DNA from: Alphaproteobacteria bacterium MarineAlpha5_Bin5 | GTDB lineage: Bacteria; Pseudomonadota; Alphaproteobacteria; HIMB59; GCA-002718135 | Reading direction: 5' to 3' | Assembly (NCBI GenBank): GCA_002938205.1 | Contig: PTKZ01000013.1 | Span: 1 to 47,105, forward strand | DNA: 47,105 bases | In this document: piece after piece, positions 1 to 26,275 of the stretch | Layout: every line of letters starts with the position of its first letter | Position numbering within the stretch: the first letter of the stretch is position 1 | The notes under the pieces: generated by a model | Told to the model about the DNA's origin: nothing | Database searches by the model: none | Seen by the model: only the letters and a program-made list of their open reading frames with translations | Made by a program: the position numbers and the translations under genes

Positions 1-840
1 ACGTCTCCTCATAGCTTTACTTTAAAACCTTCTCATGCAAAACTTCTTGAAGAGGCTGATATTATATTTTGGGTTGGCGAAGGTATGGAAACATTCATGG
101 AAAGACCTCTTGAGTCTATAGTTAAAAATGCTGAAGTGCTTGAGTTCATGGAGATTGAAAGCATTAATAAATTAAAATTCAGAGAAGAATCAATTTTTGA
201 AGATCATGATGATCACGGTCACGACGACCATGAAGACCACGACGATCACGATGAAGACCATGACGATCATGATGATCACGATGACCATGACGATCATGAT
301 GATCACGAAGGACACGATGAACACGGTCACGCGCACGGAGAATTTGATGCTCACATATGGTTAGATCCAATGAATGCTAAAGAAATGGTTCTTGAAATTG
401 CTCATGAACTATCACACTTAGATCCAGCTAATGAAGATAAGTATAATGTTAATGCAAAAGCTACAAATTTAGCTCTTGATGAAATGATTGACGACATTAG
501 TCAAAACATTAATAAAGATGCAAAGTTCGTAGTGTTTCATGATGCTTATCAATATTTTGAAGAAAGGTTTGGTGTAAGAGCTGCAGGTGCACTAACATTG
601 AATACTGATGTTTTGCCTGGAGCTAAACAAATTGATGAAATTCAAGATGTGATAAAAGATAGAGGAATTAATTGTATTTTTTCTGAACCTCAATTTAATC
701 CAAAGATTATTTCAACAATAGCACAAGATACTAATATTAAAACTGGTGTTTTTGATCCTCTTGGAGCAAATATAGATTCAGATAAATCACTTTACTTTAA
801 GTTGATAAATAACTTAAGCGAAGAACTTAAAGATTGTTAG
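1..840 (+). CDS. znuA: Zinc ABC transporter substrate-binding protein ZnuA (5' truncated)
   Basis: The reading frame is already open at base 1 (TSPHSFTLKPSHAKLLEEAD...), so the signal peptide and first zinc ligand lie outside the window. This is the periplasmic zinc-binding component that delivers Zn(II) to a ZnuBC-type importer. SPHSFTLKPSHAKLLEEAD and WVGEGMETF are typical of the ZnuA/TroA family, as are the later HIWLDPMNA and FHDAYQYFE segments. Between them, at about bases 199-340, lies a loop almost wholly of His, Asp and a few Glu/Gly. Such His-rich loops are characteristic of zinc-specific ZnuA and are thought to chaperone or sense zinc. The stop is TAG at 838-840. No permease or ATPase gene follows. 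Confidence 0.93.
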   Translation, partial: TSPHSFTLKPSHAKLLEEADIIFWVGEGMETFMERPLESIVKNAEVLEFMEIESINKLKFREESIFEDHDDHGHDDHEDHDDHDEDHDDHDDHDDHDDHDDHEGHDEHGHAHGEFDAHIWLDPMNAKEMVLEIAHELSHLDPANEDKYNVNAKATNLALDEMIDDISQNINKDAKFVVFHDAYQYFEERFGVRAAGALTLNTDVLPGAKQIDEIQDVIKDRGINCIFSEPQFNPKIISTIAQDTNIKTGVFDPLGANIDSDKSLYFKLINNLSEELKDC

Positions 841-23948: not shown

Positions 23949-24695
23949 TTAATATTTATTCAATAAACAATCTTTATTATTTTTAACTTTAATTCTATTT
24001 ATTTCAGCCATCATTACATTAATTAATGTTAATATGTTATTTTCATTATTAAAATTTAGAAGCAAATTAATGGTTTTTTGAGCAGTTACTAATCCAGCTA
24101 TTCCAGCAGCAATAGCTGAGATTCCAACAGTTTCGCATCTAGGAAGATCAACGTCATCTTTGTTTGGGAAAAGACAATTTAAACATATATGTTCACCAGT
24201 TTTGTTAGGAAAAAAACACACTTGAATGTGATTACCAACTGCAGATGAAAACATATATTTTATTGAATTTATTACACAATATTTATTTATAATTTTAGAT
24301 GTATGCCAACTATCTGTTGTATCAATGACAACTGATGAACCGTATAATAAGTTTAGATTATTTTCATTAATGTTTTTGGCATAAGCCTCGATATTACTAT
24401 TAGGGTTAGTTTTTAATAGTTTGTTTTTAGATATATGAGCTTTATTTTTACCAATATCATCAATAGAATAGAGCATTTGACGATTTAAATTATTTTTTTC
24501 AATTTTGTCACCATCAAAAATGGTTAGATTTTTTATCCCAGAAGAGATTAAATACTGACTCAATGGACATCCAATACCGCCTAATCCTATAATTGAAATT
24601 TTTTGATCTTTAAGCTTTGTAATAGCTTCTTCAGAATATTCTTTTAATATAAATTGTCTTGCAAATATTTCATATTCTAAGTCACTATAATTCAT
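23949..24695 (-). CDS. ThiF/MoeB/HesA-family adenylyltransferase
   Basis: A 248-residue E1-like enzyme that would adenylate the C-terminus of a ubiquitin-fold sulfur carrier. It has FARQFILKEYSEEAI, the nucleotide-binding GLGGIGCPLSQYLISSG, the Arg-containing NNLNRQMLYSIDDIGKNKA, DTTDSWHTS and a CLNC pair at about residue 171-174. The matching second zinc pair is incomplete: only DCLLNKY remains at the C-terminus. A possible active-site Cys lies in PRCETVGISAIA. No ThiS or MoaD partner is nearby, so thiamin versus molybdopterin synthesis cannot be decided. Confidence 0.82.
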   Translation of the reverse strand: MNYSDLEYEIFARQFILKEYSEEAITKLKDQKISIIGLGGIGCPLSQYLISSGIKNLTIFDGDKIEKNNLNRQMLYSIDDIGKNKAHISKNKLLKTNPNSNIEAYAKNINENNLNLLYGSSVVIDTTDSWHTSKIINKYCVINSIKYMFSSAVGNHIQVCFFPNKTGEHICLNCLFPNKDDVDLPRCETVGISAIAAGIAGLVTAQKTINLLLNFNNENNILTLINVMMAEINRIKVKNNKDCLLNKY

Positions 24696-24713: not shown

Positions 24714-25442
24714 CTAAATTTTATAACCTGTGTGAATGCAAACTATGCCATTAAATAGATTCGTGTAAGAAACATTAATAAAACCTACTTCAGTCAATTT
24801 ATTTTTTAATTGTTCTTGGTCTGGGAATAAATCAATACTTTGACTTAAATAATTATAAGCTGCTTTATTATTAGAAACTATTTTTCCTGCCAAGGGTAAA
24901 AAATTTGACTTATATTTTTTATAAATATTAGAAATTAATAAAGTTTCTGGAGTACTAAATTCCAAACAAAAAAAAATTCCACCTGGCTTTAAAACACGAA
25001 ATGCTTCACAAAGAGCTTTTTCAATGTTTGTGATATTTCTTAGGCAAAAAGAAATTAAGTATTTATCATAAAAATTATTTTGAAAGTTTAATTCTTCTGC
25101 ATTAGCTAAATGGAAATTAACATTTTTATTTATTATATTTTTTTTCCCCATATTTAACATTTCTTTATTTAAATCAACAACGTCTATTCTAATATTTTTT
25201 TTTCTTTTAAGTATTTCTTTTACAATATCTCCGGAACCTGAACCAACATCCACAATTACTTCATTCTTTGTAGGATTAATTAAATCTACAAATTTTTTTT
25301 TCCAAATTCTATGTGTTCCAAAACTCATTATATCATTCATTAGATCATAATATAAAGCCACGTCTGAAAATATTTTTTGAACAAATTTTGTTTTTTCTTT
25401 AAAATTTACTTTATTATAATCAAAACTTAATATTTTATTCAT
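24714..25442 (-). CDS. ubiE: Ubiquinone/menaquinone biosynthesis C-methyltransferase UbiE
   Basis: An SAM-dependent C-methyltransferase of ubiquinone synthesis. The SAM motif is VIVDVGSGSGDIVKEIL; the family-specific blocks are YYDLMNDIMSFGTHRIWKKKF, FRVLKPGGIFFCLEFS and a C-terminal NGIVCIHTGYKI. At 242 residues it is of normal length. Its start codon is only five bases from the divergent mutM start. Proximity to mutM-rpsT-dnaA is common in alphaproteobacteria. Confidence 0.95.
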   Translation of the reverse strand: MNKILSFDYNKVNFKEKTKFVQKIFSDVALYYDLMNDIMSFGTHRIWKKKFVDLINPTKNEVIVDVGSGSGDIVKEILKRKKNIRIDVVDLNKEMLNMGKKNIINKNVNFHLANAEELNFQNNFYDKYLISFCLRNITNIEKALCEAFRVLKPGGIFFCLEFSTPETLLISNIYKKYKSNFLPLAGKIVSNNKAAYNYLSQSIDLFPDQEQLKNKLTEVGFINVSYTNLFNGIVCIHTGYKI

Positions 25443-25447
25443 ATTTT

Positions 25448-26275
25448 ATGCCTGAATTGCCTGAAGTGGAAACAACTATAAATGGTTTGCGTATATTAAA
25501 AAATAAAAAAGTCATTAAAGTTAAGGTTTATACAAAAAAACTTAGATATAACATACCAGACTATATCCATAAAACAATAACAGGCCAAAGAATTAAAGAA
25601 ATTAATAGAATAGCCAAATACATTCTAATTAAATTCAAAAATAATATTACTATTATTATCCATTTAGGAATGTCTGGAAGATTAAAAATTTTAAAAAAAA
25701 ATTTTATTAAAGAAAAACATGATCATCTGATGTTATATTTTAGAGATAATTATGTCTTAGCATTAAATGATACCAGAAAGTTTAGCTTTGTTGATGTTGT
25801 TGAAACAGAAAATATTTGTAATAAGAAATATATTTCATCTCTTGGGATTGATGCACTAAGTAATAAATTATCAGCGGACTATATTTATGGAAAAATTCAT
25901 AAATCTGTAGTTCCAATAAAACAAATATTATTAAATCAACATATCGTAGCTGGGATAGGTAATATTTATGCAAGTGAAATCTTATTTGACGCTAAAATAT
26001 CTCCATTAACTCTTGGGAGAGACCTATTAGCTGATCAAATTAACCAAATTATAAAATCTATAAAAAAAATTCTTAAAAAAGCTATAAGATACAAAGGTTC
26101 AAGCATTAGAGATTATAGATCTTTTGATGGCACATTAGGTAATTTTCAGTCTAATTTTAAAGTTTATGGTAAGGCAGGAAAAAAAATTTCAAGTTATGAA
26201 ATTATTAAAATTATACAATATGGGCGAACAACATATTTCTGTCCAAAAATACAAAAGGAACAAAATAGCAATTAA
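25448..26275 (+). CDS. mutM: Formamidopyrimidine-DNA glycosylase MutM, zincless type
   Basis: A bifunctional glycosylase/AP lyase that removes 8-oxoguanine. After Met removal the mature N-terminus is PELPEVETT with catalytic Pro and Glu; IHLGMSGRLKIL carries the conserved catalytic-loop Lys region upstream, and QHIVAGIGNIYASEILF is the helix-two-turn-helix. The C-terminal zinc finger is degenerate: positions equivalent to the four cysteines read Ile247, Tyr250, Cys265 and Ile268. The conserved QYGRTT with its Arg is kept. The fold probably persists without zinc. Confidence 0.93.
   Translation: MPELPEVETTINGLRILKNKKVIKVKVYTKKLRYNIPDYIHKTITGQRIKEINRIAKYILIKFKNNITIIIHLGMSGRLKILKKNFIKEKHDHLMLYFRDNYVLALNDTRKFSFVDVVETENICNKKYISSLGIDALSNKLSADYIYGKIHKSVVPIKQILLNQHIVAGIGNIYASEILFDAKISPLTLGRDLLADQINQIIKSIKKILKKAIRYKGSSIRDYRSFDGTLGNFQSNFKVYGKAGKKISSYEIIKIIQYGRTTYFCPKIQKEQNSN

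Follow-up and report, generated by a model that had tools for sequence, protein, structure and literature searches.

Can a DNA glycosylase of the MutM type still repair oxidized DNA once its C-terminal finger has lost three of the four cysteines of the zinc site, and, if so, what led to the loss? The question is raised by a mutM (fpg) gene in a stretch of 47,105 nucleotides, referred to here as the window, from the genome of Alphaproteobacteria bacterium MarineAlpha5_Bin5 (contig PTKZ01000013.1). In the Fpg/Nei superfamily, the finger supplies one conserved arginine that clamps the phosphates on either side of the damaged nucleoside, a task that NEIL1 and plant Fpg accomplish with a zincless hairpin, according to the available portions of two papers (PMC9266487, PMC3188539). 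The original prediction, based on the window, proposed that the enzyme has dropped its zinc requirement, perhaps as a metal economy in an open-ocean organism. The evidence assembled below makes it very likely that the protein is the functional MutM/Fpg of its lineage and has a zincless finger.

The mutM Gene and Its Product

The gene, which encodes formamidopyrimidine-DNA glycosylase, lies at positions 25,448–26,275 of the forward strand (as do all the features of it given here); the open reading frame is whole and translates into 275 amino acids. Its product scores above both MutM equivalog cut-offs of NCBIfam (NF002211, 278.7 vs 212 bits; TIGR00577, 246 vs 203.3 bits). The N-terminal catalytic domain (PF01149, residues 1–113, 25,448–25,786) contains Pro2, Glu3, Lys57, and the HLGMSGRL motif with Met75, and the H2TH domain (PF06831, residues 132–222, 25,841–26,113) contains GIGNIY and Asn172. 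The 8-oxoG capping (recognition) loop, approximately residues 216–233 (26,093–26,146), is full-length, with no gaps across the loop in the alignment to the bacterial Fpg structure 6tc6. An alignment of 20 MutM sequences, with and without the zinc cysteines, showed that P2, E3, K57, M75, R110, F112, N172, and Arg260 are invariant, so the retention of the catalytic Pro/Glu, of HLGMSGRL, and of the finger arginine, as originally described, holds. Judged by its equivalog score, its catalytic, intercalating, and H2TH residues, and its full capping loop, the protein is a MutM/Fpg at the level of sequence.

The finger itself (residues 240–270, 26,165–26,257) is where it departs from the usual pattern. 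The four zinc-cysteine positions read, exactly as first noted, Ile247 (26,186–26,188), Tyr250 (26,195–26,197), Cys265 (26,240–26,242), and Ile268 (26,249–26,251), so that only the third cysteine is kept, and Arg260 is encoded at 26,225–26,227. In Pfam searches at E ≤ 1, the window MutM matched neither the zinc finger PF06827 nor the zincless finger of NEIL1, PF09292; the Cys4 finger of a MutM is absent from it. At E ≤ 10, weak partial matches to PF06827 (0.275–0.57) appeared in the mutM products of 4 of 12 genomes of the order. Aligned to the best PDB match, the knuckle of the finger is shorter by two residues.

The divergent neighbour (24,714–25,442, reverse strand) has a methyltransferase motif and was named ubiE-like from a reading of its sequence. 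The same motif was found at all 55 of the order's mutM loci of at least 3 kb, and an rpsT start pattern at 16 of these 55. A ThiF/MoeB-like protein (PF00899) is encoded at 23,949–24,695 on the reverse strand; its first CxxC is kept (CLNC) and C-L-L-N stands at the place of the C-terminal pair, so that here, too, an incomplete zinc site is possible. Near the left edge of the window (85–840, forward strand), a ZnuA-like protein (PF01297) has a very long His/Asp-rich loop. Its open reading frame joins the profile only at position 97 of 263, and the gene may begin further to the left than the frame found.

Occurrence of the Putative Zincless Finger Across the Order

The order of the window is probably the marine HIMB59/AEGEAN-169 order. 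The accessible text of PMC10734472 divides the marine order HIMB59 into the families HIMB59 and GCA002718135; genomes are larger in GCA002718135, which is probably the family of the window. The sample examined here comprised two families, that of the window (f1, 110 genomes) and a second one (f2, 52 genomes searched). A mutM match was found in 76 of the 101 genomes of the genus, in 85 of the 110 of the family, and in 132 of the 162 of the order; among those at least 90% complete, it was found in every one, both in the genus (6/6) and in the order (20/20).

The finger was read in 68 of the 132 order genomes with a match (69 were fetched, and in one, G118, the finger was cut by a contig end). 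Six loci without the start pattern were excluded from the 122-row alignment; five of these were read by eye, and all six entered the 68-genome count. The first cysteine is present in none of the 68 and the fourth in none, which answers the question, raised with the original prediction, of whether the loss is shared across the clade. At the fourth position, leucine (42 genomes) and isoleucine (24) account for 66 of the 68, with one lysine and one phenylalanine, and at the third, cysteine is kept in 53, with serine in 13 and valine and alanine in one each. A cysteine at the second position was found in only two genomes, G067 and G109, both of which also have Cys265 and hence two cysteines only. 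In f1, position 247 is Ile, Val, or Met in 49 of 49 rows and position 250 varies among D, Y, H, K, F, and N; in f2, position 250 is Y and position 265 is S or A in 10 of 11 rows. The zinc ligands are absent, and Arg260 is present in all 60 order rows aligned. On this reading of the sequences, the apparently zincless finger is fixed order-wide.

The genome of the window (1,575,745 bases, 55 contigs, 92% complete) contains a single Fpg-type match. The state common to 68 order genomes and the single match exclude the two findings that would have spoken against the original prediction, a read or assembly error at 26,186–26,260 and a second, intact mutM with this copy in decay. Such a second mutM was also sought in the rest of the order, where the genomes with two matches proved to contain split pieces (G103, G107). 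In one other genome, G002, the match is split and contains a stop. A scan of the genome collection for close relatives returned one locus only (L031, Syntrophaceae).

Selection on the Finger and Its Predicted Structure

Selection was estimated from pN/pS, in which the synonymous differences are near saturation and uncorrected, so that only the comparison between regions is usable. In f1 (49 distinct sequences), the ratio is 0.266 for the finger (residues 241–269) and 0.354 for residues 2–235; in f2 (11 sequences), it is 0.265 and 0.321, respectively. The strand bearing the arginine (253–264) has still lower ratios, 0.122 in f1 and 0.109 in f2. The knuckle (241–252) is freer in f1 (0.418 vs 0.354) and near the rest of the protein in f2 (0.346 vs 0.321), and a freer knuckle is expected if the zinc knuckle has no ligands left to hold. 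These ratios indicate that purifying selection on the finger equals or exceeds that on the remaining protein, and the word "degenerate", which had been used of this finger, is misleading: the finger is conserved.

An AlphaFold2 model built from the window MutM and 23 relatives has a mean pLDDT of 94 and a pTM of 0.89. The structural check suggested for the finger thus gave a confident Fpg fold with a predicted beta-hairpin: the blocks spanning 241–270 have a pLDDT of 92–96, and the strands of the hairpin are at 253–257 and 260–264. In comparisons with Foldseek and VIA-align, the closest structures are zinc-finger Fpg proteins (1r2y, Z 35.7 and rmsd 1.6 over 268 residues, with residues 2–270 aligned; 1k82, Z 34.5), followed at lower values by the zincless AtFPG (3twk, 3twl, and 3twm, Z 27.3–28.2, with 3twm at 28.2) and MvNei1 (3vk7, Z 26.7); all of these alignments extend into the finger. 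Since the input alignment itself contains zinc and zincless Fpg/Nei proteins, and AlphaFold2 knows the Fpg family, the model indicates that the sequence is compatible with a beta-hairpin finger and does not speak to stability without zinc.

Zinc Sites in Other Alphaproteobacterial MutM Proteins

The class sample outside the order comprised 119 sequences, 59 from the first two sets (one having been dropped) and 60 added later. They were not taken at random: 30 were the best scoring, 30 were chosen mainly for weak scores, and 60 came from the listed middle. One locus with no frame containing the GxGNxY pattern (L125) was excluded before all finger counts. The 118 rows that were classified include a Syntrophaceae outgroup and leave out L131, which has a long insert, and L260, which missed the pattern and has a standard finger by eye.

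Three cysteines were lost in only 1 of the 119 class sequences, L247 of G192, a small, incomplete genome outside the order; its finger, GDPSPADPQTPIQRIVQSGRSTFYCPASQI, keeps only the third. With two changes on the tree for L247 and the order, its finger is apparently an independent zincless loss.

The fourth cysteine is kept in 77 of the 118 classified rows, and 32 of the 41 rows without it have at least three cysteines in the first knuckle. Put the other way, it is absent from 32 of the 35 rows with at least three knuckle cysteines, compared with 9 of the 83 without. Many alphaproteobacterial MutM proteins thus have an extra first-knuckle cysteine (C-x2-C-x-C) with the fourth cysteine gone, often as CAKRQR (L087, L091, L112, L113, L117, L120, L124, L127, L136, L214, and L216, together with L237–L239, L245, L248, L250, L255, L257, L258, L265, and L266), and in these the zinc ligand has probably been relocated. 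The relocation trait requires 26 changes on the best tree, and the phylogenetically independent pairs on well-supported branches number only four. The alignments therefore suggest that other members of the class mostly have a substitute of the same kind for a lost fourth ligand; in the HIMB59-like order, ligands appear to have been lost without replacement. Three loci of f49 (L133, L134, and L137) have three-cysteine fingers in which the fourth cysteine has become Val or Leu with no extra cysteine, possibly an intermediate state.

How many times was the site lost within the order? For the order to form one clade (support of around 91), 10 long or odd rows have to be excluded; the tree with all 89 rows requires two changes for the loss. 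A third tree (127 rows) sets the 8 selected order rows apart from the rest by an unsupported branch. In view of these trees, the simplest reading, although not a firm one, is that the site was lost once, in the ancestor of the order; most likely, the sequences suggest, the third cysteine was then lost later in most of f2.

Why Was the Zinc Site Lost?

One explanation would be that mutM is decaying, with the finger being lost and the enzyme inactive or dispensable. Three of the four conserved cysteines are indeed missing, 30 of the 162 order genomes, mostly incomplete assemblies, have no match, and the match in G002 is broken. However, the gene is present in every order genome that is at least 90% complete, in f1 and f2 alike its finger has a lower pN/pS than the remaining protein, and the same state recurs in two families and several genera, which makes decay highly improbable. 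Another possibility is that the finger still coordinates a metal, zinc or a different one, with a new set of ligands, for example, Cys265 with an Asp, His, or Tyr near 250, or residues elsewhere. The retention of Cys265 in 53 of 68 genomes fits this idea, as does the visible shift of a ligand in many other Alphaproteobacteria, described above. Yet the finger lacks any four conserved Cys, His, Asp, or Glu residues, given the variability of position 250 in f1 and the Ser or Ala at 265 in nearly all f2 rows, and even the two genomes with a cysteine at 250 have only two; substitute ligands are very unlikely. The zincless reading of the original prediction is supported by order-wide fixation, purifying selection on the finger, the conserved Arg260, the predicted hairpin, and the lack of a second copy.

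As to the cause of this loss, the proposal that an open-ocean organism economizes on zinc throughout its genome appealed to the ZnuA in the window and is in keeping with what is, by inference, a marine, streamlined order. The ZnuA is indeed present, but an importer is a sign of demand for zinc and does not show that MutM lost its zinc through scarcity. Moreover, the finger of IleRS, which is homologous and belongs to the same Pfam family, retains all four of its cysteines at each of 11 order loci. In the window's own genome (G000), this finger has four cysteines and scores 20.9 bits in one search, slightly below the Pfam cut-off of 21.3, and 23.3 bits in another, and the search for it gave no PF06827 match in G083 (67% complete). 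A cysteine-pair motif applied to a 392,311-base sample, about a quarter of G000, found the pairs intact in NrdR, AccD, and a PilB/GspE-type ATPase, and the sampled class genomes of at most 1.5 Mb outside the order mostly have, by reading, a complete cysteine set. Metal economy is, on these grounds, not supported as the cause and is unlikely. A different idea is that the zinc thiolate cluster is a target of oxidation and that its loss was selected because 8-oxoG repair then continues in the presence of oxidants or intense light. According to the available part of PMC4176347, 2-thioxanthine oxidizes the finger cysteines of Fpg, which ejects the zinc and abolishes activity (for the L. lactis enzyme, DNA binding is abolished), and the zincless NEIL1 is resistant; the part of PMC11366302 available reports AEGEAN169 at up to 6% of cells in the high-irradiance surface of the South Pacific Gyre. 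Against this, the zinc finger persists in most bacteria that face oxidative stress, Cys265 is still there in most of the order, and neutral drift in a small, AT-rich genome accounts for the loss equally well, so this idea is doubtful, if conceivable. Neutral loss followed by hydrophobic compensation and selection for an oxidant-proof finger are both compatible with the data, which do not separate them.

A Proposed Finger Held Without Zinc

In the mechanism proposed for the zincless MutM, the C-terminal beta-hairpin would present the phosphate-clamping Arg260 and would be held by hydrophobic packing instead of a Cys4 zinc site. Ile247 and Ile/Leu268 might stand in for the first and fourth cysteines, together with a conserved Ile/Val-rich strand. 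Cys265, kept in most of the genomes, counts against a purely hydrophobic site, which, to go by the sequences, should have no need of it. The catalytic Pro2/Glu3, the intercalation triad Met75/Arg110/Phe112, and the full capping loop are retained, as are the arginine and the predicted hairpin, and excision of 8-oxoG and Fapy without bound zinc is therefore predicted. The portion of PMC4176347 available also reports that the Fpg variants C248GH and C268H still complement an E. coli fpg mutator.

Could another enzyme remove 8-oxoG in these bacteria? Replacement of MutM by OGG1 was considered and rejected: OGG_N (PF07934) was found in 0 of 12 order genomes and in 3 of 14 controls. A MutY-type match at E < 1e-50 was present in 11 of the 12, none of the 12 reaching the curated MutY cut-off; the twelfth, G109, gave a weak match only (4.4e-16), probably to another HhH glycosylase. 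MutM is the sole candidate found for 8-oxoG excision in these 12 genomes, which is a further reason to think it functional. It is thus rather probable that an order of abundant marine bacteria has a natural zinc-free 8-oxoG glycosylase combining a zincless finger with an intact capping loop.

If this is so, zinc would be dispensable for bacterial MutM, and the repair of oxidized DNA might itself resist oxidants by which a conventional finger is stripped of its zinc. A conserved repair enzyme may lose its zinc site across an order even as the homologous finger of IleRS persists in the same genomes, and across the Alphaproteobacteria, the MutM site seems unusually fluid. Annotation rules that demand the zinc finger would miss or downgrade the mutM genes of the order.

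Comparison with Known Fpg and Nei Proteins

The window MutM resembles the Cys4 Fpg proteins (E. coli 1k82, B. stearothermophilus 1r2y, and L. lactis 1pm5) in its fold, Pro2/Glu3, triad, H2TH, full capping loop, and finger arginine, but differs from them in its three replaced cysteines, its shorter finger (by two residues), and its failure to match PF06827. With the plant and fungal Fpg proteins (AtFPG; 3twk, 3twl, and 3twm), it shares a zincless, arginine-bearing beta-hairpin, as far as the available text of PMC9266487 and PMC3188539 goes; the latter covers 62 BaFpg1 sequences. The capping loop of plant Fpg is, however, much shorter, and, according to the text of PMC10573277 available, the little 8-oxoG activity of plant Fpg is due to this short loop. 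The alignments indicate that the window MutM lacks the shortened loop of the plant/fungal clade (PFNei). In plants, a short loop and poor 8-oxoG activity accompany the zincless finger, and a natural bacterial MutM of the present kind would let the two features be tested apart. Human NEIL1 is similar in having a hairpin without zinc ligands (PMC9266487, in the part available), whereas its family, PF09292, is not matched by the window MutM.

Another likeness is to the Mimivirus MvNei1 (3a42, 3vk7) and its viral relatives, which are zincless too and have a hydrophobic residue at the fourth cysteine position, before Gln, in GRTTHWVPQIQ; these proteins differ in being Nei-like (21–29% identity), with a valine at the third cysteine position and a different knuckle. 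MvNei1-like Fpg/Nei proteins with this zincless finger were found on IMG/VR contigs of 22–434 kb (L168–L179, L181–L184, L186, and L192); the assignment of the group to MvNei1 is by the match of L168 to PDB 3a45, and the viral alignment (A2) excludes duplicates and three rows without an ATG start. A MutM on a further IMG/VR contig, L160, lacks the first two zinc cysteines and keeps the second pair.

No report of a bacterial MutM with a zincless finger was found in the open-licence literature of PubMed Central, in which most subscription journals are not covered. Zincless fingers in the superfamily are not in themselves new, the original prediction having rightly noted that they are known; they are described in plant and fungal Fpg, NEIL1, and mimivirus Nei. 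What appears to be new, from the sequences compared here, is a bacterial MutM in which the zinc site has been lost and the capping loop kept.
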